The notes under the pieces are model-generated. The model was not told the DNA's origin, did no database searches, and worked only from the letters and a program-made list of their open reading frames with translations. This document shows positions 8,123-28,326 of a stretch of 35,545 nucleotides of DNA, one piece after another. Both the position numbers and the translations under genes were made by a program. The stretch comes from Catenovulum agarivorans DS-2 (GTDB taxonomy: Bacteria; Pseudomonadota; Gammaproteobacteria; Enterobacterales; Alteromonadaceae), in the NCBI RefSeq assembly GCF_000568405.1, contig NZ_ARZY01000047.1, forward strand, positions 1 to 35,545, given 5' to 3'. The number at the start of each line of letters is the position of its first letter. Position 1 is the first letter of the stretch.

Positions 8123-10573
8123 TTACAGTGGCTGCACAACTGTATAGACACCTTTAATATTTTGCGTTCTAAACTCAATAGTTGCCGGTTTATCTCCAGG
8201 CTTAAATTCAATTGATGCAACACCATTTGCCATTTGAATTCCATTAGTTCTGCCCGGTACACCATAGTTTTCATACAGATAACCATTTCCTTCCATCGAA
8301 GAAAAATGCGCTTTTTCTGAATAATCGATCACTCGATTACCATCTGCATCTCTAGCCTCGGCTGTGATCAATACATTGCCGTTTTCAAGTTTAGTTTGAG
8401 TTAATTTTATGTGGTCGTATTTGCCATGCTTGCCAACGACATAAGTAACTTGCAACTCATCTTTTGCCACTGTTTTACCTTTGCTATAGCCTTTTACTTC
8501 CAACTTGTTTATGCCGCTTTTAAAAGGGGTTTGCCAAACTAAACCGCCAGCAGGAAACTTAGTTGGATCTTTAGTGATTTTTCCTAAGCTTTCACCATTT
8601 AGCCAAAGCTCAGCCGATTCGGTGTTACAATACACGCTGACAGGTCGACCTTCTTTGGGTCCATTTCTGTGCGTCCATGTTTTTGATTCTATATAGCAAA
8701 ATGGTTCTTTTGCCCAGTAACTCTTAAACACATAATAAGCATCTTTAGGTTTGCCAGATGCATCAACTAAACCTTTTTGGTTCATGTAGGGTATTGGGTT
8801 TAGCGGTCGTAAAGGTGTACCAAAATCTTTAAAAGCCCATTGAGCATTACCAGCAAAACCAGCGGTCGATTCTGAAACCTTTAAGTGCCAATCAAATAGA
8901 TCAACCATATAGGATTCATTCCAGTCTGAGTCTTTAGCAACGCTTTTTACCACAGCTTGGTTCATTGCTTCCTCTACAGATACCTGCGCATCTAAAATAC
9001 CGTCTTTAGAAATTGGATTTTCTACATGACGTCCAACATGGCTAGAGCCGCCATATTCCATGTGCAAAAATGCCGGATATTTTTTCATTGAATCTTTTAT
9101 CGCCACTTCATATTGACCATAAGCGCCGCCATACCATCCAGCCCAAATTGAAGGAGAAAATGCATCAACCACATGCGCACCTGGGTAATACTTACGTATT
9201 GTGGTCATGCGAGTTGGATCTAACGCTTTAACCAACTGATTTAACTTAGTTAGATAAGGTAAGACGATTTCTTCTCGGCCACCTCCTGGAAAATCTTCTT
9301 CCCAATATATTTCATTGCCCAATGACCAAAATGCAATGCTTGGATGGTTGCGGTTTTGTTTGATTTGTTGACGCAATAAACGTTCGGTGTTTTGTTCCCA
9401 CTCGACTCCACCTTTACCACCGCGGCACCAAGGCAACTCATCCCATAAAATTAAACCGAGCTCATTCGCCGCTTTATATACTTCGGGATCTTGTGGATAG
9501 TGCGCCAAACGGACAAAGTTAGCGCCCATTTCTTTGATCATTTGCATATCTTTACGATGTTGCTCATTCGGTAAAGCAGCACCAAAACCAGAATGCTCTT
9601 CATGTCTATGTGTACCACGGATTAACACTGGTTCACCATTTACAAAAAAGCCTTGATGAGGGCGCATTTCAAACCAACGATAACCAATCACTTCAGTTTG
9701 ACTATGTACCCGTTTACCTTCGTCTAATAAATCGACTTGTACCTGATATAGGTTAGGTGCATCTGGCGACCACAACATTGGTTCAATCACTGGCGCCAAC
9801 GCGATTTCGACAAGCTGCTTTTGCTTGACTTGCACGGTTTGCTGTTGAACGATTTGTTTATTTGGGTCAAGCAATTTCAGTTGCACTTGCAACGCTTGGC
9901 GTTGTGATACTTGATTAAGCTCAATCTTAACTTGTGTTGTTGCAGATGCCTTGCTGACTTGCGGGATATCAATTTGCACATCGTCAATATAGGTTGTTGG
10001 TAGGTGTTTAATCCACACATCGCGCGTAATACCGCCATGCAAAAAGAAGTCAGCTTTTTGTGACGGAATTAAATTTGGATTGTATGCATTGCTCACCCTG
10101 ACTAATAATTGGTTATCTCCGTCAGTTAAATATTTTGAAATATTAAATTCAAAACCCAAATAACCACCCACATGCTGGCCAACATGCTGGCCATTAACAT
10201 ATAGGTCAGTTTCAAAATTTGCACCTTCAAAATAAATTATCGTATTGGCAGCTTGCTCTTGGTTGACTACCAAATTTCTTTTATACCAACTTGCGCTGCG
10301 ACGATACCCTGGTATTGCATCAATACTATCGTGCACATTCCATGAATGAGGCAAATCAACTACTTGCCAGTCTGTTTGTTTCAACGCTAGTTTTGCGTTT
10401 TCAGTATTGTTTTCTAAATACTGCCAATCATGGTTAATTAACAGTTGCTGTCCTGCGCTTGTGTGTAAAGGCTGAGCAGCTTGAGTGTGTATAGTTATTG
10501 CACTAAATAAAGCTAGACCGATTGCCGCAGCTGTCTGCGCAGCCTTTAATCGAATGAATCTAGTAAACTTCAT
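8123..10573 (-). CDS. Secreted GH2 family glycosidase (beta-glucuronidase or beta-galactosidase type)
   Basis: A retaining GH2 glycosidase of 816 residues. The start is set at ATG 10573: GAGGA lies about 9 nt upstream and a good signal peptide follows (KFTRFIRLK, then a hydrophobic stretch, cleavage near TQA-AQ at about 32). An upstream start at 10645 would translate through promoter and operator sequence. The sugar-binding and immunoglobulin-like domains occupy about 40-300. The TIM barrel follows, with acid/base N420-E421 (SLGNEIYWEE) and nucleophile E506 (LHMEYGG). A later MNQKG carries an N-x-K pattern seen in beta-glucuronidases but also in other GH2 enzymes, so it does not settle the substrate. 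Context favours glucuronic acid release. The gene is preceded by a promoter between two inverted operator copies. Confidence 0.85.
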   Translation of the reverse strand: MKFTRFIRLKAAQTAAAIGLALFSAITIHTQAAQPLHTSAGQQLLINHDWQYLENNTENAKLALKQTDWQVVDLPHSWNVHDSIDAIPGYRRSASWYKRNLVVNQEQAANTIIYFEGANFETDLYVNGQHVGQHVGGYLGFEFNISKYLTDGDNQLLVRVSNAYNPNLIPSQKADFFLHGGITRDVWIKHLPTTYIDDVQIDIPQVSKASATTQVKIELNQVSQRQALQVQLKLLDPNKQIVQQQTVQVKQKQLVEIALAPVIEPMLWSPDAPNLYQVQVDLLDEGKRVHSQTEVIGYRWFEMRPHQGFFVNGEPVLIRGTHRHEEHSGFGAALPNEQHRKDMQMIKEMGANFVRLAHYPQDPEVYKAANELGLILWDELPWCRGGKGGVEWEQNTERLLRQQIKQNRNHPSIAFWSLGNEIYWEEDFPGGGREEIVLPYLTKLNQLVKALDPTRMTTIRKYYPGAHVVDAFSPSIWAGWYGGAYGQYEVAIKDSMKKYPAFLHMEYGGSSHVGRHVENPISKDGILDAQVSVEEAMNQAVVKSVAKDSDWNESYMVDLFDWHLKVSESTAGFAGNAQWAFKDFGTPLRPLNPIPYMNQKGLVDASGKPKDAYYVFKSYWAKEPFCYIESKTWTHRNGPKEGRPVSVYCNTESAELWLNGESLGKITKDPTKFPAGGLVWQTPFKSGINKLEVKGYSKGKTVAKDELQVTYVVGKHGKYDHIKLTQTKLENGNVLITAEARDADGNRVIDYSEKAHFSSMEGNGYLYENYGVPGRTNGIQMANGVASIEFKPGDKPATIEFRTQNIKGVYTVVQPL

Positions 10574-10593
10574 AATTGTAGTCCTCAGTTTAA

Positions 10594-10607
10594 TTGGCCT
10601 TACCACC
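10594..10607 (+). promoter_or_regulatory. Operator-like site A at the GH2 promoter
   Basis: TTGGCCTTACCACC, containing the shared core TGGCCTTACCA. The core has the TGG-N5-CCA form of GntR/FadR-type operators. It lies just downstream of the predicted transcription start of the GH2 gene, the usual position for a repressor site. Its exact 14-bp inverted copy is at 10667-10680. Confidence 0.65.
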
Positions 10608-10616
10608 AAACCACAA

Positions 10617-10645
10617 AGAATAACTTTAGTCACAGACTGAGTCAA
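10617..10645 (-). promoter_or_regulatory. Sigma70-like promoter of the GH2 gene
   Basis: On the minus strand TTGACT (10640-10645), a 17-bp spacer, then TATTCT (10617-10622). The start of transcription would fall near 10610, about 37 nt before the GH2 start codon. The promoter lies between the two inverted operator copies. Confidence 0.55.
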
Positions 10646-15280: not shown

Positions 15281-15934
15281 TTAAGTATATTGGCGGACAA
15301 TTTTCACCGCTGCGGCTGCGGCACCAAAACCGTTATTGATATTGACCGTCATCACTCCAGGCGCACACGACGCCAGCGCACTAGAGAGTGCAGCTTGTCC
15401 ATCGGCAGAAACGCCGTAACCAACCGCAGTGGGCACCGCAATGACGGGAGCTGAAACTAAACCAGCTAGAACACTAAATAATGCGCCTTCCATTCCAGCG
15501 ACTGCAATGATGATCTTGTACTGGCGAATTTGCTCTATGTTATCTAACAAACGCCATAACCCTGCCACCCCTACATCAGCAATCAGCGGCGCTTCGATTC
15601 CATTAAACCTAAGCGTACGCTGAGCTTCAGTTGCAACCGAAACATCTGAAGTACCAGCACACACAATACAAACTTGCTTGCTGGATTGAACAATAGGTTC
15701 TAGATTTGCGATGGCCGTTTTAGAGGTCAGATCATAGTCAAGTTGCTGGCGAATTTCGGGCGACAAGGTAGCCCATTGCTCGCTGGATAACCGTGTCATC
15801 AACAATGCTTTTTGTTCCGCTAGGTTGTGTTCAACAATCGCTTGTAAATCTGAATTAGACTTACCTTGGCAAAAAACGGCTTCTGCCACACCTGTGCGAG
15901 TTTTCCGCTCGGCATCCCAAATAAAATTACTCAT
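15281..15934 (-). CDS. larB: LarB: pyridinium-3,5-biscarboxylate mononucleotide synthase
   Basis: LarB carboxylates and hydrolyses nicotinic acid adenine dinucleotide, the first step in making the nickel-pincer nucleotide (NPN) cofactor of LarA. The 217-residue protein has the PurE-like C-terminal domain: CIVCAGTSDVSVATEAQRT, DVGVAGLWRLL, VAGMEGALFSVLAGLV, VPTAVGYG and a terminal VNINNGFGAA. The N-terminal part with DAERKTRTGVAEAVFCQGKS is also typical. It is slightly shorter than the Lactobacillus protein (about 246). It is the last gene of the operon, starting 2 bp after larE. No terminator was found in the 141 bp that follow. Confidence 0.92.
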   Translation of the reverse strand: MSNFIWDAERKTRTGVAEAVFCQGKSNSDLQAIVEHNLAEQKALLMTRLSSEQWATLSPEIRQQLDYDLTSKTAIANLEPIVQSSKQVCIVCAGTSDVSVATEAQRTLRFNGIEAPLIADVGVAGLWRLLDNIEQIRQYKIIIAVAGMEGALFSVLAGLVSAPVIAVPTAVGYGVSADGQAALSSALASCAPGVMTVNINNGFGAAAAAVKIVRQYT

Positions 15935-15936
15935 AC

Positions 15937-16815
15937 TTAACTTACCTGCTTAATTTCTATCTGGGTCCATTGATTTGATTGTTCAGTTAAAAATGCCGAA
16001 CCTTTTTGATATTCGCGCACTTCAACAAAAACGCGTCCTTTAATTAAACAAGCCTGTGTAACTTGTTGAATCACCGCCGACAACAAAGGCTCAGCTGGCA
16101 ATTTGGCCAGTTCTATTACAACCCCATTGTGGGTAATACGACAACGTATATTGTCCAACTTTGGTAGCTTTGAGCGGACTAACCGCTCCATTTCATCGAT
16201 AAACTCAAGATCAGCCACGCTTACGCTAATGCCCGTTTCAATTCTACTGGCTAAACACGGCTGTGCGGGAAGCGCTTGCAAGTCAGTTAATCCAAAATAT
16301 TTAGCCAACTGATAAATTTCGACTTTGCTTATATTTGCTTCGACATACGGGTGATGTACTTTGTGCTCGGCTGCCGCAATTAATCCTGGACGATAATCAC
16401 CAAGGTCGTCCATGTTTGTCCCAGAAAAAATAACGTCGCAGGCATGTTTGCCGATACGCTGATACAAACTGCTCTTACAAAAATAACAGCGATTTACCGG
16501 ATTGCTACGATAATTTGGATTGTCTAATTCCTTGGCATCAACAATGCGTAGGTTCCATTGATGTTTGCTTGAATAAGCTTGAATGCGTTGTAACGCAGAC
16601 TTAGGCACAGCTGGTGAAGCTGCGTGCACAGCATTAACATGACTAGCTGAATAGCGATGTAATACATAAGTAAGCAACATACTATCAACACCGCCACTTA
16701 ACGCGACTGATACAGAGGCAAATTGATTTGCAAACTCAAGCAAATTATTTAGCTTAGCTTGCAACCCTTTGGGCATAAATTTTACGTTTGTTGCAAACAT
16801 ATCATTACCACTCAT
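15937..16815 (-). CDS. larE: LarE: ATP-dependent sulfur insertion enzyme, three-cysteine type
   Basis: LarE activates and thiolates the two carboxylates of the LarB product. The 292-residue protein has the PP-loop SGGVDS (40-45), a GTNMDDLGDYRPG segment (132-144) and the family block PCLASRIETG (186-195). Three cysteines stand out: C110 and C113 in NRCYFC and C187 in PCLASR. Two classes are known: one sacrifices its own single cysteine sulfur, the other holds a [4Fe-4S] cluster on three cysteines and can act repeatedly. This protein has the pattern of the second class. It lies 3 bp after larC and 2 bp before larB. Confidence 0.92.
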   Translation of the reverse strand: MSGNDMFATNVKFMPKGLQAKLNNLLEFANQFASVSVALSGGVDSMLLTYVLHRYSASHVNAVHAASPAVPKSALQRIQAYSSKHQWNLRIVDAKELDNPNYRSNPVNRCYFCKSSLYQRIGKHACDVIFSGTNMDDLGDYRPGLIAAAEHKVHHPYVEANISKVEIYQLAKYFGLTDLQALPAQPCLASRIETGISVSVADLEFIDEMERLVRSKLPKLDNIRCRITHNGVVIELAKLPAEPLLSAVIQQVTQACLIKGRVFVEVREYQKGSAFLTEQSNQWTQIEIKQVS

Positions 16816-16818
16816 TGA

Positions 16819-18093
16819 CTATAATTCTCGCGAAAATTTTGCCTGACGTCTTTGCTGTAAAGTTGCCAATGGTTCAATTTCGTCGTGCTCTATTTTGGTG
16901 GTTGAGTAGCCATTGCGTTCAACCGTTTTGGCATTCAAACCATCCACTTTATTATGAGTTCGTTTTAAACAGCTTCTATTCACACTGTAATGACGCAAGC
17001 CGATGGTCGAGGTCTGGTGAAAACACTCTGAGATTATATCTTGCAGCGCGTATGAATCTGCCATCACCCGAAAACATTCAACTGGTCGGTTTTTCTTGCC
17101 CTTGGCTGTAAAACAAACCAAATCTATCACCCCTGATAATTGGCGAATTTTGTCTGCCGCACAAGCAATTTCTTCACCTGTCATATCATCGATGTCAAAT
17201 TCAATCACTTCGATACTCAACGGCGTTTGTGGTGCATCAGCTCCTTCAAACACTAATGCCCGTAATATATTCGGCATATTTTTAAGCTGTTTAGTACCAA
17301 GCCCATAACCTGTAGCTGTTAAAGTCGAAACTGTTTTGTCGGCAAATAAGTTGGCTTGACGCAAATAAGCTAAAATAGCTGCTCCGGTTGGAGTAATGCG
17401 TTCTCCATGAATACCGTCATCAACAAAAGTAAAACCTTGCAATATTTCAGCCGTCGCTGGCGCAGGTACAGGCAACATTCCATGGGCGGTTTTAACCAAT
17501 CCTCCCCCTATCGGCAGTTTGGATATACTCCATACACAAGTTGATAACGCGTGCAAAATACTGGCGACCGCAACAACATCCATTACAGAATCCCAATCTG
17601 CCAACTCGTGAAAATGAACATCATCTAAGGTTTTATTGTGAATTTTCGCTTCTGCTTTGCCAATAATGGTTAGAATTGACTTGGCGATTTCGACAACTTC
17701 TGGGGCTAATTCACTGTGCGCTAGCATATGGCAAATGCCGCGATAAGTCGTTCGAGGATCATGATGGTGGTCATGGTCATGGTCATGGTCATGGTCATGG
17801 TCATGGTCATGGTCATGGTCATGGTCATGGTCATGGTCATGGTCATGGTCATGGTCATGGTCATGGTCATGGTCATGGGTATGCTGATGTAATTTTAACT
17901 TGAACTGCAAGCCACTAATGCCTTTATTCAAACCAGCTGCAATACTTGCTTGCCCAACATTATTTGGGATAACTTTTGTCACAGCATCCATGACAATAGC
18001 TTCAAGCCAAGGTTGGCTATCAATCATAGCCGAGATAAACATATCCCCTGCAATACCACCAACAATGTCCAGATGAATATGTTTATTGTGCAT
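16819..18093 (-). CDS. larC: LarC: nickel insertion enzyme (CTP-dependent) with an (HD)18 tract
   Basis: LarC inserts nickel into the dithiolated pyridinium cofactor, using CTP. The 424-residue protein begins with HLDIVGGIAGDMFISAM, has DDVHFHELADWDSVMDVV in the middle and later GERITPTGAAILAYL and EFDIDDMTGEE, all family blocks. Residues 73-108 are eighteen consecutive His-Asp pairs encoded by a perfect hexamer tract, followed by HHHD. Histidine-rich insertions are known in LarC, but this one is long and perfectly regular. In Lactobacillus the protein is made by a ribosomal frameshift between larC1 and larC2; here it is a single uninterrupted frame. Spacing to larA is 8 bp and to larE 3 bp. 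Confidence 0.93.
   Translation of the reverse strand: MHNKHIHLDIVGGIAGDMFISAMIDSQPWLEAIVMDAVTKVIPNNVGQASIAAGLNKGISGLQFKLKLHQHTHDHDHDHDHDHDHDHDHDHDHDHDHDHDHDHDHDHDHHHDPRTTYRGICHMLAHSELAPEVVEIAKSILTIIGKAEAKIHNKTLDDVHFHELADWDSVMDVVAVASILHALSTCVWSISKLPIGGGLVKTAHGMLPVPAPATAEILQGFTFVDDGIHGERITPTGAAILAYLRQANLFADKTVSTLTATGYGLGTKQLKNMPNILRALVFEGADAPQTPLSIEVIEFDIDDMTGEEIACAADKIRQLSGVIDLVCFTAKGKKNRPVECFRVMADSYALQDIISECFHQTSTIGLRHYSVNRSCLKRTHNKVDGLNAKTVERNGYSTTKIEHDEIEPLATLQQRRQAKFSREL
17770..17877 (-). repeat. Perfect hexamer tandem repeat (CATGAC)x18 inside larC
   Basis: Eighteen identical copies of CATGAC, 108 bp, in frame with larC and coding for (His-Asp)18. Copies are identical at the DNA level, so expansion was recent or is being kept uniform by slippage. 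Copy-number change would keep the frame. Confidence 0.97.
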
Positions 18094-18101
18094 ACAACAA
18101 C

Positions 18102-19391
18102 CTACTTATTCTCAAAATTCTCTTTGGTTGTCCATAATCCAAGTGCAGGATTACTAACGTAAAAAATTTCCTCGCCATTTGGCAGCGTGTTCCAACCATT
18201 TTCTAATTGCTCAGTTGGATAACGTTTTATCATCTCATCGTAATGGCAATACTGATAATTAACTTGCTCAATTTCTGCTTGGCTGACCGCATCTTTCGGA
18301 CAATAGGTCACGGTGAAACGATTATCACTGGTGCCATGAATTAAATGTGCAGCCGCGGACAAATTATTTTTCAGATCAGGGTTTTGTTCAATCGCGGCCA
18401 AAGTTTCGTCGGTCGTTTTATAACCAAATTTGCGAATTAACCCATCTATCGACATATCTTCGCCAAAACGTTTTAGCCCTGGGGCTAAAACAATCAGTTC
18501 GCCCCCGTCCGCAATTGCCATACGAGTGCGATAAATAGCTTTATTCCCCAACCAAGTGGTTTTAAATTCGGTCGGGTCTAAATACACAACGGCCTTTTTA
18601 ATCGGTTTATCGAGTAGATTAAGGTTGTGTTGTTGGCTTAACAAACAAGCTTGTTCATAGGTTGCATATTCATCACCACAAAACACACCCTTCAAAGCCA
18701 GTTGGCCGTTTTCTTTACCCAAAACGGTTAAAATAAAATCAATCGGCAAATGACTTAAAAACTGGTCAAACCCTTCATTTAAGGCACTACGAACTGGGGT
18801 TTTAATGCGTCCCATAATACGTTCCATACCATAAGCTGCTCCCAAGAAGTGAGACTTATGAATGGTATCTTCTCCACCAACACCAATTAGAATATTTTTG
18901 GTGTAGTTGGCCATACCAATTACTTCGTGCGGCACAATTTGCCCAACGGAGACAATCGCGTCCCAATCGTTATCCAATAACAGTTTATTGACCCCAACAT
19001 CCATAGTGTAATTCAGCTTGCCGTCTGACAGTTCATTAATTCGCTGCTCAGTAATTTGCCCAACAACTTTTACATCTTTACGCCAGTAATGTGGATGAAA
19101 TACCGACTTAGGAATATCCGCACCAAACATCATATCGAGTTCAGCATCCGTCATAGGATCATGTGTGCCTAACGCAGGCATAATTGCAACTTCACAGCGA
19201 TCTTTTAAGTTGTGATACAAGTAACTGGTAATAAATCCGGCTTTTGAATGAAACCTAGTTAAGTCGGGCGGCAACAACAATACTTTTTTCGCATTAGTTA
19301 AACGCTGGCTAATATATTGGTCAATAATATGTTCAAGCTGAGTATCGTCAATTAGCCCTGCTTGAGCCGTCTGGTGGATAGTAAAACTCAT
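18102..19391 (-). CDS. larA: LarA-family nickel-pincer racemase/epimerase, probably D-mannonate/D-gluconate 2-epimerase
   Basis: LarA enzymes swap the C2 configuration of alpha-hydroxy acids by hydride transfer to the nickel-pincer nucleotide. All key positions are present: D43 and R46 (PDLTRFH), H77 in GTHDP, H155 (proton transfer), K165 (covalent cofactor attachment) and H181 (nickel ligand). The H155-K165-H181 spacing of 10 and 26 is identical to H174-K184-H200 of Lactobacillus LarA. The protein has 429 residues. Family members are known to act on lactate, malate and, as I recall, D-gluconate. The gene abuts gntK with no gap and follows uxuB-uxaC and a TRAP transporter, so a six-carbon aldonate is the likely substrate rather than lactate. 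Substrate is inferred; the family is certain. Confidence 0.9.
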   Translation of the reverse strand: MSFTIHQTAQAGLIDDTQLEHIIDQYISQRLTNAKKVLLLPPDLTRFHSKAGFITSYLYHNLKDRCEVAIMPALGTHDPMTDAELDMMFGADIPKSVFHPHYWRKDVKVVGQITEQRINELSDGKLNYTMDVGVNKLLLDNDWDAIVSVGQIVPHEVIGMANYTKNILIGVGGEDTIHKSHFLGAAYGMERIMGRIKTPVRSALNEGFDQFLSHLPIDFILTVLGKENGQLALKGVFCGDEYATYEQACLLSQQHNLNLLDKPIKKAVVYLDPTEFKTTWLGNKAIYRTRMAIADGGELIVLAPGLKRFGEDMSIDGLIRKFGYKTTDETLAAIEQNPDLKNNLSAAAHLIHGTSDNRFTVTYCPKDAVSQAEIEQVNYQYCHYDEMIKRYPTEQLENGWNTLPNGEEIFYVSNPALGLWTTKENFENK

Positions 19392-19871
19392 TTATATTTC
19401 CTTGATAATATTCTGAACGATTGCCTCTAACGACTGATTAATGTCAATAACGAGTGCATGTTCAGGCTCTTCGAGCGTTGCCAATTGCGACATTAACAAG
19501 TCTGACTTCATAAAATGGCCAGTTCTGCTTTCAAGGCGGCTGAGTAACGTTGCAAAGTCCCCCTTTAAAAATACAAAAGTTACCGCCTGTGCTAGGTTAT
19601 CGGCTAAACAATCACGATAAGCTTGCTTAAGTGCCGAGCATGCTAACACGGCTCCGCCGTTTTGCTGCCATTGCTGCATTTCGGAATTAAGCTTTTGCAG
19701 CCAAGGCCATCTGTCTTCGTCAGTTAACGCAATGCCTGCAGACATTTTGTCGACATTACTTTGTGGGTGATAATCATCGGCATCAAAAAATGGTAATTGC
19801 AACTTTTCCGCTAGCTGTGTACCTACACTACTTTTACCACAGCCACTCACGCCCATAATCACATAAATCAT
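19392..19871 (-). CDS. gntK: Gluconokinase
   Basis: Phosphorylates D-gluconate with ATP to 6-phosphogluconate in the cytoplasm. The protein shows Walker A GVSGCGKSS at the N-terminus and the GntK block DADDYHPQSNVDKMSAG...L.DEDRWPWL, then CSALKQAYRD and the FLKGD...R...R.GHFM pattern. The ATG at 19871 (159 aa) has AAGG 8 nt upstream; a GTG two codons earlier lies too close to that site. It is slightly shorter than E. coli GntK (175). It sits between dctM and larA with almost no spacing. Because UxuB makes mannonate, which GntK does not normally use, an epimerase supplying gluconate explains why these genes are together. Its product is the substrate of gnd at 6.5-8.0 kb. Confidence 0.93.
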   Translation of the reverse strand: MIYVIMGVSGCGKSSVGTQLAEKLQLPFFDADDYHPQSNVDKMSAGIALTDEDRWPWLQKLNSEMQQWQQNGGAVLACSALKQAYRDCLADNLAQAVTFVFLKGDFATLLSRLESRTGHFMKSDLLMSQLATLEEPEHALVIDINQSLEAIVQNIIKEI

Positions 19872-19880
19872 AGTCACACC

Positions 19881-21179
19881 TTACCCTAAACCAAATAAAT
19901 TGGGTAAAAACTCACTTATAGCAGGCACATATGTCACCAACATTAATACCACTATCATAGCCATATACAATGGGATAAGCGGCCTAATGAGTTTTTCAAT
20001 CGAGGTTTTTGCTACTGCACAACCAACAAACAGTACCGACCCAACAGGCGGTGAAACTAGGCCTATAGATAAGTTAAGCACTATCATTATGCCAAAATGC
20101 AAGGGTGACATACCTAATGCTTCAGCAACAGGTAAAAAGATTGGCGTAAAAATTAATACCGCAGGGGTCATATCCATAAATGCGCCAATCACCAACAAAC
20201 AAATATTGATTAACAACAAAATCAGTAATGGATTTTCGCTTAACGTTAATAAAAACTCGCTGATGGCTTGCGGGATATTCACATAAGACATTATCCACGA
20301 CATTGCAGATGACGCACCAATCAACAACATAACAATTGCGGTGGTTTCAGCTGATTTAAGCAATATTTCAGACATTTCACTCATCTTAACTTCTTTATAG
20401 ACAATGACAGATAGAATGAGTGAATAAATTACAGCGATTGCGCCTGCTTCAGTTGCAGTAAAGACCCCTGAAATAATACCGCCAATCACGATAAATATCA
20501 GTAATAAGCTTGGCAATGCTGCTTTAACTTTTTCAAATACAACACTAAATGGTAGACGCGCTGCAGTTGGGTAACCTTTTGCTTTTGCATAACCCGCACA
20601 CACTAACATTAATGCTAGCGCAACCAGAATACCAGGTAGATAACCCGCGACAAATAATGCAGCAATTGAAACACCACCACTTGCAACAGCGTAGATAATC
20701 AAAATGTTACTTGGTGGTATTAACATACCCGTTGTTGCCGAGGTACAAGTGACTGCCGCGGCAAAGTTTTTGTCGTAACCGTTTTTCTCCATTTGCGGGA
20801 TCATAAAACTGCCGATTGCACTCGTTGCCGCCACAGCCGAACCTGAAATGGCACCAAACAATGTACATGACATTACGTTAACCAATGCTAATCCACCTGG
20901 TAAGAAACCAATTAATGCCATAGCACATTCAATTAAGCGTTTGGCGATACCACCACGCCCCATAATCAAACCTGATAAAACAAAAAATGGAATAGCCAAC
21001 AAAACAAAACTATTTACGCCACCAGCTAACCTTTGTGCGACCGTAGTCACTGCAGGCGCAAAGTCTATAGTAAATAACATAGTCACGGCTGTTGCGATCC
21101 CAATGCTAAATGAGATAGGTACATTAAGCAGCAACAGGGCAAAAAACGTAATAACTAAAACTAATCCTGAATAATCCAT
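19881..21179 (-). CDS. dctM: TRAP transporter large permease (DctM type)
   Basis: The large membrane subunit, 432 residues with about twelve hydrophobic segments, forms the ion-driven translocation path of a TRAP transporter. Family marks are VPISFSIGIATAV at the N-terminus, FVLSGLIMGRGGIAKRLIE, FGAISGSAVAATSAIGSFMIPQM and LIPPSNILIIYAVASGG. The start at 21179 is preferred because TAGG lies 7 nt upstream and the N-terminus then matches the family. An ATG at 21200 would overlap dctQ. It stops 9 bp before gntK. Confidence 0.93.
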   Translation of the reverse strand: MDYSGLVLVITFFALLLLNVPISFSIGIATAVTMLFTIDFAPAVTTVAQRLAGGVNSFVLLAIPFFVLSGLIMGRGGIAKRLIECAMALIGFLPGGLALVNVMSCTLFGAISGSAVAATSAIGSFMIPQMEKNGYDKNFAAAVTCTSATTGMLIPPSNILIIYAVASGGVSIAALFVAGYLPGILVALALMLVCAGYAKAKGYPTAARLPFSVVFEKVKAALPSLLLIFIVIGGIISGVFTATEAGAIAVIYSLILSVIVYKEVKMSEMSEILLKSAETTAIVMLLIGASSAMSWIMSYVNIPQAISEFLLTLSENPLLILLLINICLLVIGAFMDMTPAVLIFTPIFLPVAEALGMSPLHFGIMIVLNLSIGLVSPPVGSVLFVGCAVAKTSIEKLIRPLIPLYMAMIVVLMLVTYVPAISEFLPNLFGLG

Positions 21180-21187
21180 AGCTATGC

Positions 21188-21670
21188 CTATTGCCCCCAT
21201 ATTTGTGATGCTAATTGTTTGATTTTATTGATGCCGAACAACACAATAATCAAACCCGATAGAGGCACCGCAAAATATACGTAGCCCATTTTTATTTCTA
21301 ATGCTGCCGATGTTTGAATCGGTGTCATGGTTAAATCAACCAATGAAAACCCACCAAACACCATAACGTTAAGTGCAAAGCCAACAACACACAAATGAGA
21401 AAATATCCCGGCAACGGCTTGGCCTTTTGTCGATAGTTTGTTAACTAGAATATCTAAGCCTAAATGCGAGCCTGTTTGATAAGCATATGCAGCACCAAAC
21501 AAACTGATCCAAATAAGTAAGAAACGAGCAGCTTCTTCAGTAACTGAGCTAGGTGCTTGTAATACGTATCGTGAAATCACTTGCCAGGTCACCATAACTA
21601 CAATGAGTGCGCTTAAAGCCACCAGCAATTTTTTTAATAGACTTTCTACATGCGAGGTAACAGAATTCAT
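21188..21670 (-). CDS. dctQ: TRAP transporter small permease (DctQ type)
   Basis: A 160-residue membrane protein with four hydrophobic segments, the small permease subunit. The stretch WQVISRYVLQAPSSVTEEAARFLLIWISLFGAAYAY near residues 25-60 is the family signature. Its ATG overlaps the dctP stop codon (TAATG), so the two are translationally coupled, and dctM follows after 8 bp. Confidence 0.92.
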   Translation of the reverse strand: MNSVTSHVESLLKKLLVALSALIVVMVTWQVISRYVLQAPSSVTEEAARFLLIWISLFGAAYAYQTGSHLGLDILVNKLSTKGQAVAGIFSHLCVVGFALNVMVFGGFSLVDLTMTPIQTSAALEIKMGYVYFAVPLSGLIIVLFGINKIKQLASQIWGQ

Positions 21671-22653
21671 TATTTGCCCTCATTCATTGATGCAATTTGC
21701 TCAAGGTACTGGCCGATGCGTGTACCTTTAAAAGTTGCATGGAAATCTTGAACCGCGTTGATAAAAGGCGTTTTATCTGGGTATATCACTTCAACCCCTG
21801 CTTTTTTAACTTCAGCGAGTGCTTGTAACTCACCTTCAAGCCACAGCTGTTTTTGATATTCCACTGAATCTTGAATTGCTTTTTTTAACCAAAGCTGTTG
21901 TTGCTCTGTTAAGTTGTTATACACATGTGCACTACCAACAATGACATCTGGTACAGATGTATGCTCATTCAGAATATAATATTTGCTGATTTCGTAGTGA
22001 CGTGACAAATAAAACGAAGGTGGGTTATTTTCAGCGCCATCAACAACACCTTGCTGTAGTGCGGCGTACAGCTCACCGAACGAAATAGGTGTAGCTGCAC
22101 CACTAAACGCTTGCACCATTTTTACTGCGGTTTGGCTTTCCATCACACGGATTTTTTTGCCAGTTAAGTCTTTAGGCTCTTTAACCCGAGTATCAGTCAT
22201 ATAAAAACTTCGACTACCCGCATCGTAATAACCTAAACCAACTAAATGCGCTTTTTGGGTTTCGTTCAACAAGTTTTGTCCAACATCGCCATTAAGTACA
22301 CGCCATCTATGCTCGCGCGATTGAAAGATATACGGCAAACTGAACACCTTCATCTCAGGAACAAAACCTTCAATGGTTGCGGCAGATACTTTAGTCATAG
22401 CCAAACTACCAATTTGCAATAACTCAACCATCTCACGTTCGTTACCCAGTTGGGCACTTGGATAGATCACAACATCCATTTCACCATTTGAGTAATGTTG
22501 CAAACGCTCGGCCATATGTACCATAGCTTTGTGAACACTATGCTCAGTATCGAGCGTGTGGCCCATTCTGAGTACAACTTTTTGCTGTTCTCCGCCACAA
22601 GACGTTAACACCACCAAAAAGCTCAAACAAAAAACTGTTTTAAACCAGTTCAT
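21670..22653 (-). CDS. dctP: TRAP transporter solute-binding lipoprotein (DctP type), probably uronate-binding
   Basis: The 327-residue periplasmic component captures the substrate. Residues 1-19 are a signal peptide with a lipobox-like TSCG, so it is probably a lipoprotein. Family blocks are RMGHTLDTEHSVHKAM, VYPSAQLGNEREMVELLQ, KIRVMES (with the carboxylate-binding arginine), and FGELYAALQQGVVDGAENN. DctP proteins near kduI, kduD, uxaC and uxuB usually bind uronic acids. A GGGGGA lies just before the ATG. The gene begins only 10 bp after a terminator-like hairpin that separates it from kduI. Confidence 0.92.
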   Translation of the reverse strand: MNWFKTVFCLSFLVVLTSCGGEQQKVVLRMGHTLDTEHSVHKAMVHMAERLQHYSNGEMDVVIYPSAQLGNEREMVELLQIGSLAMTKVSAATIEGFVPEMKVFSLPYIFQSREHRWRVLNGDVGQNLLNETQKAHLVGLGYYDAGSRSFYMTDTRVKEPKDLTGKKIRVMESQTAVKMVQAFSGAATPISFGELYAALQQGVVDGAENNPPSFYLSRHYEISKYYILNEHTSVPDVIVGSAHVYNNLTEQQQLWLKKAIQDSVEYQKQLWLEGELQALAEVKKAGVEVIYPDKTPFINAVQDFHATFKGTRIGQYLEQIASMNEGK

Positions 22654-22662
22654 AAATCCCCC

Positions 22663-22696
22663 AAAAAAAGAGGCAGCGAATCACTTCAACTGCCTC
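22663..22696 (-). terminator. Terminator-like hairpin inside the uronate operon
   Basis: On the minus strand GAGGCAG pairs perfectly with CTGCCTC across a 13-nt loop, followed by seven T. It lies in the 58-bp gap between kduI and dctP, immediately before the dctP ribosome binding site. It should reduce read-through into the transporter, gntK and lar genes, or act as an mRNA 3'-end stabiliser for the upstream genes. Confidence 0.7.
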
Positions 22697-22711
22697 CAAC
22701 ACACACGACAA

Positions 22712-23554
22712 CTAGCGAAGTTCAGTTGGAGCATGAATATCCATATCGTCATATGCCAAGTTTTCACCTGCCATACCCCAAACGAAAGAATAATTAGCTG
22801 TGCCACAACCAGAATGAATTGACCAAGGAGGAGAAACCACAGCTTGTTCATTTGCCACCCAGATATGACGCGTTTCTTGCGGTTCACCCATAAAATGACA
22901 GACAGCTTGCCCTTGTGGGATTTCAAAATAAAAATAAGCTTCCATACGGCGATCATGCTGATGCGCTGGCATAGTGTTCCATACACTACCTGGCTGCAAA
23001 CACGTTATGCCCATTTGTAATTGGCAAGTTTCTACTACACCATTAACCAACAATTGATGGATTCTTCTTTGGTTAGACGTTTCTAAGCTGCCTAATTCAA
23101 GAATATTCGCGTCAGCCAAACCGACTTTTTTAGTTGGAAAAGCCTTATGTGCTGGCGCTGAGTTTAAATAAAAATGTGCAGGCGCATTTTTATTAGCACT
23201 GGCAAATGTCACTTGTTTGTTACCTTGGCCTACGTATAAAGCTTCTTTTGCTTCTAGTTGATATTCAACACCGTCAACTGTTACTACACCTAAACCACCA
23301 ACATTAACCACACCTAACTCACGGCGATCTAAAAAGTGCTCAGACTTAGTTTCGTCAATTGCAGTTAAACTGAGTACTTCATTGACAGGTACAACCCCAC
23401 CAATAATGTAACGGTCGTAATGAGTATAAATTAGGGTTATTTCGTCTTGCGTCATAATGTTGTGACACAAAAATTCATCTCTAAATTGCTGAGTATCAAA
23501 GGTTTTAATTTCGTTACGGCCAATTGCATAACGGGTTGTACAATTAATTGTCAT
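22712..23554 (-). CDS. kduI: 5-dehydro-4-deoxy-D-glucuronate isomerase
   Basis: Converts 5-keto-4-deoxyuronate, formed spontaneously from unsaturated uronate, into 3-deoxy-D-glycero-2,5-hexodiulosonate. The 280-residue cupin-type protein matches E. coli KduI (278). The zinc site appears as PAHQHDRRMEAYFYFE (two histidines and a glutamate) plus a later PPWSIHSGCGT histidine. It starts 15 bp after kduD. Its presence means the polysaccharide is cut at least partly by a lyase. Confidence 0.95.
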   Translation of the reverse strand: MTINCTTRYAIGRNEIKTFDTQQFRDEFLCHNIMTQDEITLIYTHYDRYIIGGVVPVNEVLSLTAIDETKSEHFLDRRELGVVNVGGLGVVTVDGVEYQLEAKEALYVGQGNKQVTFASANKNAPAHFYLNSAPAHKAFPTKKVGLADANILELGSLETSNQRRIHQLLVNGVVETCQLQMGITCLQPGSVWNTMPAHQHDRRMEAYFYFEIPQGQAVCHFMGEPQETRHIWVANEQAVVSPPWSIHSGCGTANYSFVWGMAGENLAYDDMDIHAPTELR

Positions 23555-23569
23555 TATTTACTCCAATAC

Positions 23570-24340
23570 TTATCGGGCTAACCAGCCGCCGTCAACTGCT
23601 AATACGTGACCATTGACATAATCACTTGCGCTTGATGCTAAAAATACCGCGGCACCAACCAATTGATCAGGCTCACCCCATTGACCCGCAGGAATACGTT
23701 TTTCAATATCACGATTACGCTCAGGGTTGTCTTGCAAAGCTTGGGTGTTATCAGTTCTAAAATAACCAGGTGCAATTGCATTTACTTGAATGTTATTAAT
23801 CGCCCATTCGTTAGCCAATGCTTTGGTTACACCTGCAATACCATGTTTACTGGCTGTGTATGCTGGCACTGTAATACCGCCAGAATAAGACAACATAGAC
23901 GCGATATTAATAATTTTGCCTTGGCCACGTTCAATCATGCTTTTGCCAATTAAACGACTTAATAAAAACGCTGAATTTAAGTTAACGTTAATTACTTTTA
24001 ACCATTCGTCTTCAGGAAAATCGACCGCTGGGAAACGCGCAATTGTGCCGCCGTTATTTAATAAAATGTCGACTTGACCTTGCCATGCAAGCGCTGCTTC
24101 AGCCAAAGCTTTAACTGAGTCGCTATCATTTAAATCAGCTGCAACTTGAATAGCTTCACCACCTGCTTGCTCAATTAATTTAATGGTTTCATCACAACCG
24201 TTAGCTTTTGAGCTGCTACAAACAACCTTTGCACCCGCATTTGCTAAACCAAGCGCCAATGCACGGCCTAAACCTCGACTACTGCCTGTTACTAATGCAA
24301 CTTTGCCTGCTAAAGAAAACATTTTGTTTGAATCTGTCAT
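23570..24340 (-). CDS. kduD: 2-dehydro-3-deoxy-D-gluconate 5-dehydrogenase
   Basis: An SDR-family reductase that converts the KduI product to KDG with NAD(P)H. The 256-residue protein has the cofactor motif TGSSRGLG near 19, NNGG near 93, the catalytic YTASKHG (Y and K) and GYFRTDNTQAL, which is typical of KduD. AGAGG precedes the ATG by 6 nt. It lies 10 bp after uxaC and 15 bp before kduI. Its product is used by KdgK, encoded at 4654-5574. Confidence 0.95.
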   Translation of the reverse strand: MTDSNKMFSLAGKVALVTGSSRGLGRALALGLANAGAKVVCSSSKANGCDETIKLIEQAGGEAIQVAADLNDSDSVKALAEAALAWQGQVDILLNNGGTIARFPAVDFPEDEWLKVINVNLNSAFLLSRLIGKSMIERGQGKIINIASMLSYSGGITVPAYTASKHGIAGVTKALANEWAINNIQVNAIAPGYFRTDNTQALQDNPERNRDIEKRIPAGQWGEPDQLVGAAVFLASSASDYVNGHVLAVDGGWLAR

Positions 24341-24350
24341 ATGTAACCTC

Positions 24351-25787
24351 TTATTTTGACGTCTTGGTATTTTGGTAAGCTTCTTTTGCTAAGCGATAAG
24401 AAAGATCATGCGCCAAATCAAAAGCGGCACTTTCAGAAATTCTATGTTCAGCGACCATTTGCGCTAAGAAACGGCAATCTATACGACGAGCAACATCATG
24501 GCGCGCAGGTATAGATAAAAACGCACGGGTATCGTCGTTAAAACCAACGGTATTGTAGAAACCTGCTGTTTCTGTGATTGAGTGGCGATAACGCAACATG
24601 CCCTCAGGCGAATCATGAAACCACCAAGCAGGTCCTAATTTAAGTGCAGGATAATGACCCGCTAAAGGCGCTAGCTCACGCGTATAAGTCGTTTCGTCTA
24701 AGGTGAATAAAATAATGCGCAAATCCGTAGAATTGCCGTATTTATTTAACAGCGGCGCCATGTTTTGCACAAATTCAGCTTGTACTGGAATATCGCCGCC
24801 CTTGTCGCGACCAAAATTTTGCAATACTTGGCCATTATGGTTGCGATAAACACCAGGGTGAATTTGCATTACCATGCCATCTTGCAAACTCATGCCTGCA
24901 AGCTCGGTTAACATTTGTGCACGGAATAATTCGGCTTGCTCTTTGCTGAAGTTACCAGAACGAACTTGACTAAATAAACGCTCACATTCACTTGCAGTTA
25001 AATCAGCTGTTTTCGCGGTTGCATGACCATGGTCGGTGGCTGTTGCGCCGTGCTCACGGAAAAATGCCCGGCGGTCACGAATTGCAGCTAAATAGCCTTG
25101 CCAGCTAGCACAGTCTTGACCTGTTATATCAGCAAGTTTTGTTAAGTTATGTGCAAAATTTCCGCTTTCAGGATCAACAATGTCGTCTGGACGGAAAGTA
25201 GTAATAACGGTTTTATCTATGCCTGTGCCTTTTAATTGCGCATGGTATTTTAAATCGTCTAAACCACCTTCAGTGGTTGCCAATAACTCAATGTTGAATT
25301 TTTCCAACAAAGCACGAGGTTTAAATTCATCGCTGGCTAAAATTTCATTGATACGGTCGTAAAAGAAATCAGCTGAATCTTCAGTTAATTCAACTTCAAA
25401 CCCAAAAATGCTGCACAACACGTGATCCATCCACATACGTGACGGCGTGCCATGAAATAAATAATAATGTTTAGCAAAACACCGCCAAATTTTACGGTAG
25501 TCGCTTTCAACTGCACCACCATCTAAACGCTTAATCCCCAATGACTCTAAACTAACACCCTGGCTATAGAGCATTCTAAAAACATAATGGTCTGGAATAA
25601 TCAGCAATTCAGCCGCATTGGAGAAATTGTTATTTTCAGCAAACCAACGAGGGTCTGTATGGCCGTGTGGGCTAACAATGGGTAAATCTTTTATCGACGC
25701 GTATAAATCACGACTGATGCTTCTTAATTTGCTATCAGCACTAAACAAGCGGTCTTCATGAATTGAGTATGGTGCAAAGTTGGCCAT
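24351..25787 (-). CDS. uxaC: Glucuronate (uronate) isomerase
   Basis: Isomerises D-glucuronate to D-fructuronate (and D-galacturonate to D-tagaturonate). The 478-residue protein of the amidohydrolase superfamily shows the metal motif HGH at 41-43 followed by TDPRWFA, GTPSRMWMDH near 115, TTEGG.DDL, TFRPDDIVDP, and QIHPGVYRNH, all as in E. coli UxaC. It is second in the operon, 26 bp after uxuB. The partner UxuB suggests that the main substrate here is glucuronate rather than galacturonate, since no altronate genes are seen. Confidence 0.95.
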   Translation of the reverse strand: MANFAPYSIHEDRLFSADSKLRSISRDLYASIKDLPIVSPHGHTDPRWFAENNNFSNAAELLIIPDHYVFRMLYSQGVSLESLGIKRLDGGAVESDYRKIWRCFAKHYYLFHGTPSRMWMDHVLCSIFGFEVELTEDSADFFYDRINEILASDEFKPRALLEKFNIELLATTEGGLDDLKYHAQLKGTGIDKTVITTFRPDDIVDPESGNFAHNLTKLADITGQDCASWQGYLAAIRDRRAFFREHGATATDHGHATAKTADLTASECERLFSQVRSGNFSKEQAELFRAQMLTELAGMSLQDGMVMQIHPGVYRNHNGQVLQNFGRDKGGDIPVQAEFVQNMAPLLNKYGNSTDLRIILFTLDETTYTRELAPLAGHYPALKLGPAWWFHDSPEGMLRYRHSITETAGFYNTVGFNDDTRAFLSIPARHDVARRIDCRFLAQMVAEHRISESAAFDLAHDLSYRLAKEAYQNTKTSK

Positions 25788-25813
25788 TTAAACCTCTACC
25801 TAAAAATTTTCTA

Positions 25814-27274
25814 TTACGCTAATGACGCTAAAAATGAATCTATTTCACTATAGGCTGTAACAACCGAATCTACGAATTGCTGATTTGCCAATAGTTCTTT
25901 TTCAACTATGCCGTCAATCGCTAAAAATGCACTGACGTCTGACTTGGCATCACCGGTAAAGCCACTAACAACCTGCTGCATAAGTTGATTTTTCGGATCA
26001 GCAATGTCGGCTTGCTGTTCGGTGCGAGCAACAATAAATTTAATCCAGGCTGCAACAACAATAGATAAACGTTCAATTGACCGACCAGCTGCTAAGTTTT
26101 CTTTAATTGGCTCTAAGGTACGAACTGGAATTTTTAACGAACCATCGGCTGCAATTTGAATTAACAAATGACGAATCGACGGATTGTCGTAACGCTCAAG
26201 AATGGCTTGAGCATAATCGGCAAGATCTAAACCTGCTGGCGCGTCAATCGATGGGATAATTTCGTGTTCAAGCAGCTCGCTAATAAAAGCTTTCACTTGC
26301 GTGTTATTAATAGCGTTATAAACAGTATCAATCGACAGTAAGCTGCCAATGTAAGCAAGCGCTGAATGTGTGCCATTTAAAATACGCAATTTAGTTTTTT
26401 CAAAACCGTCAACGTCGTTGGTAAACATCACACCTGCTTTTTCCCATGCTGGGCGCGCCATACTAGGAATATCTTCAATGACCCATTGCGCAAAAGGTTC
26501 ACGTTGCACAGGTACGCTATCTGTATAACGACAGTTTTCTTCCACCGCGGCAACGGTTGAACCTTCGGTTTTTGGGGTAATGCAATCAACCATGGTATTA
26601 GGGAAATGTGCATTGGCCGAAATCCAATTGGCAAGTTCAGAGTTAATTTCATTCGCTAAAGCAACAGTGGCTTTTTTCAGTTTGTCACCATTGTGCGGCA
26701 AGTTGTCGCAGGCAATAACATTAAAAGCAGGTTGCCCCTTATAAAAACGACTTAAAAAGCCTGCCACTAAAATACCTACAGCCGATTTTGGTGAAGTAAT
26801 ATTGCCAATATCATGCTGAATATTAGCTGATTGAATGTCTAAATCACCTGCTTCATTCAAACAATAACCTTTTTCAGTCACAGTTAAAGAAACCAGTTTG
26901 ACTGATGGTAAAGCCAATGTTGCTAGCACATCAGGCATTTGCTTAGATGCAACTAGAGCTTGTTTAATTGAACCTATAATTTGAAAGCTTTGTGTTTTGC
27001 CACAAACCACATTAGTGTATAAACCGTCTTGAGCGTTTATTTGATCTTTCAATTGCTCATTACTAAAGGCAACAGCACAAATTCCCCATTGTAAATCATT
27101 GGTTTGCTCTAAAACTTGTTCGGTAAATACCGCTTGATGAGAACGATGAAACGCACCTAGACCTAAATGAACAATACCAATATCTAATTCAGATCTTTTG
27201 TATGACGGTAATTGAACACCTGCTTCAGCTAGGCTTAAAGTATGTTGTGCTAGATAATCATTGCTAAGTTGCAT
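25814..27274 (-). CDS. uxuB: D-mannonate oxidoreductase (fructuronate reductase)
   Basis: Reduces D-fructuronate to D-mannonate with NADH. From ATG 27274 the protein has 486 residues, equal to E. coli UxuB; a TTG nine codons upstream is unnecessary. Long-chain mannitol dehydrogenase features are IVHLGLGAFHRSHQA (about 34-48), SLTVTEKGYC, VIACDNLPHNG, FPNTMVDCITP, and the catalytic KLRILNGTHSALAYIG. UxuB is favoured over UxaB by close similarity to the E. coli UxuB sequence as I remember it. It is the first gene of the operon and has a strong promoter with an adjacent operator. In the standard pathway UxuA would dehydrate the mannonate, but no uxuA occurs in the window. Confidence 0.92.
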   Translation of the reverse strand: MQLSNDYLAQHTLSLAEAGVQLPSYKRSELDIGIVHLGLGAFHRSHQAVFTEQVLEQTNDLQWGICAVAFSNEQLKDQINAQDGLYTNVVCGKTQSFQIIGSIKQALVASKQMPDVLATLALPSVKLVSLTVTEKGYCLNEAGDLDIQSANIQHDIGNITSPKSAVGILVAGFLSRFYKGQPAFNVIACDNLPHNGDKLKKATVALANEINSELANWISANAHFPNTMVDCITPKTEGSTVAAVEENCRYTDSVPVQREPFAQWVIEDIPSMARPAWEKAGVMFTNDVDGFEKTKLRILNGTHSALAYIGSLLSIDTVYNAINNTQVKAFISELLEHEIIPSIDAPAGLDLADYAQAILERYDNPSIRHLLIQIAADGSLKIPVRTLEPIKENLAAGRSIERLSIVVAAWIKFIVARTEQQADIADPKNQLMQQVVSGFTGDAKSDVSAFLAIDGIVEKELLANQQFVDSVVTAYSEIDSFLASLA

Positions 27275-27353
27275 AGGTGTACCTGAGTGATTTATTGACA
27301 ATTTGCTTTATAATGAGCGACTTTGATACAAAATAACTAAGTAATTGACTAAA

Positions 27354-27381
27354 ATTATAATTAAAAACCGACCATAGTCAA
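27354..27381 (-). promoter_or_regulatory. Sigma70-like promoter of the uronate operon
   Basis: On the minus strand TTGACT (27376-27381), a 16-bp spacer, and a perfect TATAAT (27354-27359). Transcription would begin near 27347, giving a leader of about 70 nt before uxuB. Confidence 0.75.
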
Positions 27382-27492: not shown

Positions 27493-28326
27493 ATGGCCAA
27501 GACGAAAAGCATTCTGTTTATCTTTAAAAATCTGACTCTTGTAGCCAGTCTGCTGCTATCTGCAGTTATACAAGCCAAAGATGTTATTTTGGTGACACCG
27601 AGTAGCTCGCCAATTGATGTGCGTGGAACATACGCAAGTGCCTTGTTAATACAAGCGCTGTCTCATAGCAAACCAAAACACTATAACGTAGTTTTTAGCC
27701 CACCTATGAATGAAGCCCGCGCCGAAAAACAAATGCATTTAGGGAGGAACGTACATGTAATGTGGGCAGCGGCTCGCGTTGAGTGGGAAAATACGCTAAT
27801 AGCAGTCAAACAGCCATTGCTTAAAGGCCTATTAGGTAAGCGTGTGTTCTTCATCAATAAAAATAAGCAAAACCTATTTAGCATTATACGCAATATAAAT
27901 GAACTAAAGAAACTCAGGCTGGGTACCGGGCATGTGTGGTCAATCACACGAATTTTTGAGAATAACCAATTTAACTTAGTTACTAGCTCAAGTTACGAAG
28001 GTTTATTTAAAATGCTTGCCAAAGATAGATTTGATTATTTTCCACGCGGGGTAAATGAAATATTAGAAGAGTTTGCCACGCGTAAAGAAATGTACCCTAA
28101 TATGGCAATTGAACAAGATATAGTACTGAAAACCGATTTACCAGTTTATTACTACGTAACACCAGCCAGTCCTGAAATAGCGAAAGATATTGAAGTTGGC
28201 TTAGCTGCTATTATAAAAAATGGTACTTTTGATAAATTGTTCGACCAGCATTTTAGCCAACTGCAAACATCCTTGCAGTTGACTAATCGTAAGGTATTTA
28301 AACTAACCTCACCTCATAAAGACTAG
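27493..28326 (+). CDS. Solo periplasmic solute-binding protein, paralogue of the one at 14252-15139
   Basis: A 277-residue secreted protein. Residues 1-28 form a signal peptide (KSILFIFKNLTLVASLLLSA, cleavage near IQA-KD). The bacterial solute-binding layout is visible: HVMWAAARVEWE, then LRLGTGHVWSITRIFE, then DRFDYFPRGVNEILEEF. The order and wording of these blocks match the other solo binding protein in this window. No ABC permease or ATPase is adjacent. It is divergent from uxuB and shares the operator-bearing intergenic region, which suggests co-regulation with uronate use. Ligand unknown. Confidence 0.75.
   Translation: MAKTKSILFIFKNLTLVASLLLSAVIQAKDVILVTPSSSPIDVRGTYASALLIQALSHSKPKHYNVVFSPPMNEARAEKQMHLGRNVHVMWAAARVEWENTLIAVKQPLLKGLLGKRVFFINKNKQNLFSIIRNINELKKLRLGTGHVWSITRIFENNQFNLVTSSSYEGLFKMLAKDRFDYFPRGVNEILEEFATRKEMYPNMAIEQDIVLKTDLPVYYYVTPASPEIAKDIEVGLAAIIKNGTFDKLFDQHFSQLQTSLQLTNRKVFKLTSPHKD

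Follow-up and report, generated by a model that had tools for sequence, protein, structure and literature searches.

How might a bacterium that seems equipped to turn D-glucuronate into D-mannonate dispose of the mannonate when its genome holds no known mannonate dehydratase? The question is raised by a contig of Catenovulum agarivorans DS-2 (NZ_ARZY01000047.1), whose 35,545 nucleotides are referred to here as the window, and in which one operon combines genes for hexuronate uptake, isomerisation and reduction with the gluconokinase gene gntK, the nickel-pincer epimerase gene larA and the three cofactor-maturation genes larC, larE and larB. An initial annotation, made from the letters of the window, had proposed that LarA replaces mannonate dehydratase by epimerising D-mannonate to D-gluconate. 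Analysis of the window, its genome and related loci leads us to regard the operon, with good confidence, as a glucuronate route that passes through mannonate and LarA-made gluconate to 6-phosphogluconate.

The operon and its LarA

Genes were assigned by Pfam and NCBIfam profile searches, the latter with their curated cut-offs. Twelve minus-strand genes run head to tail from 27301 to 15281, all frames open, never more than 58 bp apart and overlapping twice, in the following order:

25814..27301, minus strand: uxuB-like gene, first of the operon, fructuronate (or tagaturonate) reductase, 495 aa (Pfam Mannitol_dh N- and C-terminal domains)
24351..25787, minus strand: uxaC, glucuronate/galacturonate isomerase, 478 aa (NCBIfam 569 bits, cut-off 387; PF02614)
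23570..24340, minus strand: kduD, 2-dehydro-3-deoxygluconate (KDG) 5-dehydrogenase, 256 aa (TIGR01832, 345 bits, cut-off 339)
22712..23554, minus strand: kduI, 5-dehydro-4-deoxyglucuronate isomerase, 280 aa (NF002091, 432 bits, cut-off 250)
21670..22653, minus strand: dctP, solute-binding protein of a tripartite ATP-independent periplasmic (TRAP) transporter (TIGR00787, PF03480)
21188..21670, minus strand: dctQ, TRAP small permease (PF04290)
19881..21200, minus strand: dctM, TRAP large permease (TIGR00786, 453 bits)
19392..19877, minus strand: gntK, gluconokinase, 161 aa, P-loop GVSGCGKSS (TIGR01313, 185 bits, cut-off 114)
18102..19391, minus strand: larA, group-18 nickel-pincer putative hexonate epimerase, 429 aa (NF052594, 627 bits, cut-off 500)
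16819..18093, minus strand: larC, nickel insertion protein, a single open reading frame (ORF) with LarC1 and LarC2 (TIGR00299 and NF052512, above cut-offs)
15937..16815, minus strand: larE, sulfur insertase, P-loop SGGVDS, CXXC-C cysteines (TIGR00268, 235 bits, cut-off 150)
15281..15934, minus strand: larB, nickel-pincer cofactor biosynthesis protein (NF033503, 264 bits, cut-off 175)

The gene order and tight spacing, the joining of larA to gntK (zero bases lie between them) and the presence of all three cofactor genes, which pass their cut-offs, bear out the initial annotation, and the LarA residues H77, H155, K165 and H181 are intact as it had claimed. Its pairing of UxaC with UxuB stands in part: UxaC exceeds its cut-off and is the sole UxaC match in the genome, whereas the reductase is UxuB-like only, scoring 362 bits against the 603-bit cut-off of the NCBIfam fructuronate reductase model, the weakest assignment of the operon. 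The best solved chain for GntK is 1knq, a gluconate kinase.

LarA is captured by NF052594, 'nickel-dependent putative hexonate epimerase' (LarA-homologue group 18), at 627 bits, while the other LarA models listed reach 72 bits at most; the label of lactate racemase was rejected on its score of 48 bits. The only PDB sequence that LarA matches at E 0.001 is 4NAR (E 5.7e-35, phmmer 124 bits), which is GntE2 of Thermotoga maritima (PMC7583248). Through the 4NAR alignment, the residue set described in PMC7583248 maps to R46, K165 and H181 for cofactor binding and to D43, H77, H155 and K284 for catalysis, and none of the seven varies among 92 aligned rows (90 distinct). Groups 18-20 are described there as sharing a signature of E-V/S after the catalytic histidine, a tryptophan in helix 11 and A/V in helix 14. 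E156, V157 and W280 are likewise kept in all 92 rows, and W280 aligns with the tryptophan preceding the catalytic lysine of 4NAR and was taken as that of helix 11, so that the loop and helix-11 parts of the signature fit; in helix 14, N343 aligns with N348 of GntE2 and is asparagine in 85 of the 92. As for the maturation proteins, C110, C113 and C187 of LarE form the CXXC-C set that marks the [4Fe-4S]-type enzyme (PMC9283937), and LarC contains an unbroken run of 18 His-Asp pairs (residues 73-108) that likely binds nickel.

In the route that we propose, hexuronate would be taken up by the TRAP transporter, UxaC would isomerise D-glucuronate to D-fructuronate, and the UxuB-like enzyme would reduce this to D-mannonate. 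LarA, with a nickel-pincer cofactor made by LarB, LarE and LarC, would then invert C2 by proton-coupled hydride transfer to give D-gluconate, and GntK would convert gluconate to 6-phosphogluconate, pulling the epimerisation forward; unsaturated uronates would be handled in parallel by KduI and KduD. The substrates of all these enzymes and the direction of flux are those that we infer. The genome holds the whole set, namely UxaC, a mannonate-forming reductase (by family only), an epimerase, a gluconokinase and an exit for 6-phosphogluconate, and the initially annotated succession of glucuronate, fructuronate, mannonate, gluconate and 6-phosphogluconate is well supported by genomic context.

Exits from mannonate and 6-phosphogluconate

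UxuA had been reported missing from the window, and PF03786 indeed has no match there or anywhere in the genome (rated 100% complete, 143 contigs); the same search recovered UxuA in five known genomes, T. maritima among them. A uxuA elsewhere in the genome, which the initial annotation had named as evidence that would overturn its proposal, was thus looked for and not found. To our knowledge ManD is the other mannonate dehydratase family, and in the window's genome it does not rise above its 550-bit cut-off, the best score being 232-243 bits. LarA is thus the only recognised exit from mannonate in this genome.

Onward from 6-phosphogluconate, the initial annotation had invoked Gnd, and gnd does lie in the same window, about 7 kb downstream of the operon. 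Passage through Gnd is not obligatory, since zwf, edd and eda occur together on contig C1 of the genome and provide an Entner-Doudoroff exit. The features concerned here, all outside the operon, are:

6552..8021, minus strand: gnd, decarboxylating 6-phosphogluconate dehydrogenase (TIGR00873, 775 bits, cut-off 427)
4654..5574, minus strand: PfkB kinase, KDG-kinase-like (NF052444, 261 bits, under the cut-off of 400)
8123..10645, minus strand: GH2 glycosidase, beta-glucuronidase-like (NF050095, 345 bits, under the cut-off of 950)
27354..27381, minus strand: sigma-70-type promoter-like site 5' of uxuB (11/12 consensus matches)

Near gnd, besides the PfkB and GH2 genes, are those for fructose-1,6-bisphosphate aldolase and fructose-1,6-bisphosphatase. 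For unsaturated uronates that reach KDG via KduI and KduD, both this KdgK-like kinase and Eda are present, and the kinase is a possible partner of the two enzymes; the glycosidase may be a source of glucuronate. The promoter-like site is a consensus match only, the best of 25 in its region, where shuffled sequences hold more (mean 39). The uxuB-like gene downstream of it has two candidate starts, 27301 (TTG) or 27274.

Group-18 LarA in relatives and other phyla

Among 60 genomes of relatives, the window's included, group-18 LarA is above cut-off in nine: all eight of the genus, which is shared with Catenovulum maritimum Q1 and C. adriaticum TS8, and one further genome, G760. UxaC occurs in 17 of the 60, including all nine carriers. 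The 12 larA genes of these nine genomes have varied settings, with uxaC in the same stretch in six, the operon running on into uxaE in five, and gnd near some. UxaE was found in five of the 60, every one a group-18 carrier and each time within 4 kb of a larA, which ties LarA to fructuronate and mannonate; it was not found in the window's genome. Four relatives with neither LarA nor UxuA (G765, G767, G348 and G560) have the same type of TRAP transporter together with uxaA, uxaC, a UxuB-like gene, eda and a KDG-kinase-like gene, and three of the four also have kduI and/or kduD. Comparison of these loci indicates that the upper half of the pathway is common and the lower half exchanged.

The coupling to gluconokinase extends through the family. 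In 395 Alteromonadaceae genomes, 18 carry group-18 LarA in 22 genes, the window's included, and gntK stands immediately 5' of larA, within about 10 nt, at all 22 loci. Twice the two form a single reading frame: in C. maritimum Q1 (591 aa, L048:3707-5482, minus strand) and on a closed plasmid, NZ_CP026605.1, of Saccharobesus litoralis CCB-QB4 (589 aa, L235:11521-13290, plus strand), where the protein, WP_159084288.1, is annotated in the database as gluconokinase only. With 76% identity to one another, no linker and all seven LarA residues retained, these fusions are unlikely to stem from sequencing error. On the S. litoralis plasmid the operon comprises gntK-larA, larE, larB, a TauE/SafE gene, uxaE and gnd, with a divergent LacI gene upstream and uxaC further on. 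In sets of 369 genomes of the class and 398 of the phylum, the window's own genome was the only one with a group-18 LarA above cut-off, so that neither set was of use for comparison.

A wider set was formed from the best 80 of at least 533 LarA relatives in genome contigs, at 52% identity or more, from Alteromonadaceae, Cellvibrionaceae, Lentisphaerota, Bacteroidota, Planctomycetota and others; all four of these LarAs that were tested exceed the NF052594 cut-off. Each neighbour was placed with the single query that gave it the best phmmer score, which leaves the PfkB and short-chain dehydrogenase/reductase (SDR) groups rough. A gnd gene lies within 5 kb of larA at 38 of the 80 loci (25 of them with a same-strand gnd at 300 bp or less) and at none between 5 and 10 kb, a bin that holds 422 six-frame ORFs. 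An SDR is found within 5 kb at 28 loci, and the two that were tested exceed the 281-bit cut-off for D-mannonate oxidoreductase, at 377 and 430 bits. At 26 loci a PfkB kinase some 359 residues long is encoded within 5 kb, at 23 of them adjacent to larA (within 300 bp, same strand), and gnd, SDR and PfkB occur together at 13. Genes for LarB, LarC or LarE were seen next to larA only at the seven gammaproteobacterial loci of the 80.

The PfkB kinase stands directly 5' of larA in Bacteroidota and others (for example L105:5998-7080 and L122:8846-9925); three members checked against NCBIfam match best, under cut-off, a fusion of 2-dehydro-3-deoxy-6-phosphogluconate aldolase and kinase. We offer it as a candidate gluconokinase, a guess only, because KDG pathway genes are present at some loci and PfkB is accompanied by gntK at L103. 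On balance, and with much less assurance than for the operon itself, we lean towards a role for group-18 LarA as the epimerase in a shunt from hexuronate to 6-phosphogluconate that is widespread in Bacteroidota and their relatives, in Lentisphaerota and in marine Alteromonadaceae, with the PfkB gluconokinase as the non-orthologous counterpart of GntK at many Bacteroidota loci and some others, and with a bifunctional GntK-LarA in some Alteromonadaceae.

Some further observations concern the surroundings of these operons. In several, a DsbD_2 or TauE/SafE membrane protein is encoded between larB and uxaE (L042:15769-16422, L235:14828-15511); its gene is absent from the window operon, and the protein might transport nickel or sulfur used in the cofactor. 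In two LarA operon copies (L043 and L046) a larC ORF was not seen, and other copies in genome G750 retain larC. The window operon is bordered by two mutually related proteins (14252-15139, minus strand, and 27493-28326, plus strand) that have no Pfam or NCBIfam match and whose homologues recur near other LarA and UxaC loci. A group II intron RNA match occupies the window end (1-192, minus strand). Genes for a group II intron maturase, a Fic protein and YgjV lie near the S. litoralis plasmid locus, and the last two of these proteins are encoded in the window as well.

Competing readings and known systems

Several findings weigh against the proposed route. Homology cannot separate the UxuB-like protein from tagaturonate reductase: it is 39% identical to E. 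coli UxuB and 25% to UxaB, and the tree of its homologues mixes UxaA- and UxuA-linked members, with E. coli UxaB as an outgroup on a very long branch. No published assay of a group-18 LarA was found in a literature search of open-licence PubMed Central (PMC) papers. Four proteins of the window's genome match the dehydratase-like MR_MLE_C family and could include an uncharacterised mannonate dehydratase. At 30 of the 80 wider loci there is no gnd, gntK, PfkB or SDR; no more than eight of them are shorter than 10 kb, and at L097, which counts among the 30, gntK is fused to larA. Growth on galacturonate was absent in S. litoralis CCB-QB4, the strain with the plasmid-borne fused operon, for which the authors of that work list a mannonate dehydratase (PMC7953866); unlike the window's genome, this strain has UxaE. 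Finally, ManD is above cut-off in six of the seven other genomes of the genus (G751 being the exception; it is not above cut-off in G760 either) and in one of 50 wider group-18 genomes, and UxuA is above cut-off in 18 of those 50 (13 strong and whole, four split, one weak). At two loci of metagenome-assembled genomes (L099 and L100), uxuA and the gntK-larA operon even lie side by side.

These last counts led us to reject strict replacement of UxuA or ManD across group-18 carriers. The proposal that LarA replaces mannonate dehydratase therefore holds for the genome of the window and fails as a general rule; LarA is a branch, the sole known one only in some genomes and in most sister genomes a second beside ManD. 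Nor did an anti-correlation of uxuA with group-18 LarA survive the wider sample, although among the 60 relatives UxuA occurs in five and in none of the nine carriers.

Of the other readings of the operon, one reverses the last two steps: GntK would phosphorylate D-mannonate and LarA would epimerise 6-phosphomannonate to 6-phosphogluconate. This order is described as demonstrated in extracts of Lactobacillus suebicus (PMC6978723), and the adjacency and fusion of gntK and larA are compatible with either; we nevertheless consider it improbable, since the characterised groups 19 and 20 use free mannonate (PMC7583248) and E. coli GntK is cited as unable to use mannonate (PMC6978723). It is decidedly improbable that the hexonate is a different one, the reductase making D-altronate from tagaturonate and LarA epimerising altronate, some other hexonate or an aldarate. 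UxuB-like homologues do adjoin uxaA in the four relatives without UxuA, so that their branch may include tagaturonate reductases, another natural substrate is suspected for group 19 (PMC7583248), and the window's genome has no UxaE; against this, gntK and gnd are not expected downstream of altronate, the path from UxaE, encoded in sister LarA operons, runs to fructuronate and mannonate, and the SDR neighbour in other phyla is a D-mannonate oxidoreductase over cut-off in both cases tested.

Gluconate scavenging, in which LarA would run from gluconate to mannonate for dehydration to KDG, finds a ManD that would accept the product in six of the seven other genomes of the genus, and is very unlikely for a genome with neither UxuA nor ManD over cut-off and with a gluconokinase coupled to larA at 22 of 22 family loci, twice in one frame. 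Racemisation of lactate, malate or another 2-hydroxyacid by a LarA placed here by chance is hardly credible against profile scores of 627 bits for group 18, 48 for lactate racemase and 72 for malate racemase, the 22 of 22 gntK linkage and the group-specific residues, for all that the superfamily has many substrates and context does not always indicate activity (PMC7583248).

The route through LarA-made gluconate was initially thought new as a uronate bypass, and as a concept it is prior art. Rodionova 2012, as described in PMC6978723 and PMC7583248, proposed that Thermotoga converts mannonate to gluconate for pentose phosphate metabolism, and the gntE of that work is mentioned in PMC7953866. 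The case for such a route is stronger here than it was there, natural GntK-LarA fusions in relatives included. According to PMC7583248 (2020), mannonate/gluconate activity has been demonstrated for GntE1 and GntE2, and hexonate was guessed as the substrate of group 18; in the main text of PMC11770544 the words glucuronate and hexonate do not occur. Among open-licence PMC papers, supplements lying outside the search, no paper was found on the group-18 assignment, the GntK-LarA fusion or the PfkB neighbour. New as far as we have seen are the assignment of group 18 by context, the fusions, the cross-phylum cluster, and the finding that an operon including the cofactor genes stands in a genome that has no known mannonate dehydratase.

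If the proposal is correct, it would give a function to a LarA group for which we found no published assay, in several phyla and probably hundreds of genomes, gut and rumen bacteria included, and nickel availability would matter for uronate breakdown in the latter. It would also explain how glucuronate can be used where the genome encodes no known mannonate dehydratase, and imply that uronate carbon is diverted to the pentose phosphate pathway and NADPH. A protein on which to test it already exists in the natural GntK-LarA fusion, and the PfkB encoded beside larA is a candidate for a new gluconokinase.

The closest known system is that of Thermotoga, where GntE2/LarAH20 of T. maritima (4NAR) is placed in a hexuronate pathway with UxaE, GntK and 6-phosphogluconate dehydrogenase, likewise a nickel-pincer epimerase in a uronate pathway with gluconokinase (PMC6978723). 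GntE2 has the same cofactor-binding and catalytic residues as our LarA and turns D-mannonate into D-gluconate in vitro (PMC7583248), but it belongs to group 20 rather than 18, and T. maritima also has UxuA. In the Catenovulum operon, by contrast, larC, larE and larB are included, GntK fusions occur in relatives, and a long-chain UxuB-type reductase takes the place of the SDR UxaD (PMC5673643). GntE1/LarAH19 of Corynebacterium glutamicum and LarAH15 of Phytophthora are of the same superfamily with demonstrated mannonate/gluconate activity (PMC7583248, PMC11770544); GntE1 differs in its LarA group and its very high KM, and those who described it suspect that its natural substrate is a different one (PMC7583248). 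The hybrid pathway of L. suebicus also joins the isomerase route to 6-phosphogluconate, but there phosphorylation precedes epimerisation and no epimerase gene is assigned in PMC6978723.

With the isomerase route through UxuA or ManD, the operon has UxaC and UxuB in common as far as mannonate, which that route dehydrates to KDG, whereas neither dehydratase is over cut-off here. The lactate racemase operon of Lactobacillus plantarum, as here, has LarA with its own larB, larC and larE nearby. It differs in substrate and in its LarE, a sacrificial single-cysteine enzyme there and of the CXXC-C type in Catenovulum (PMC9283937).

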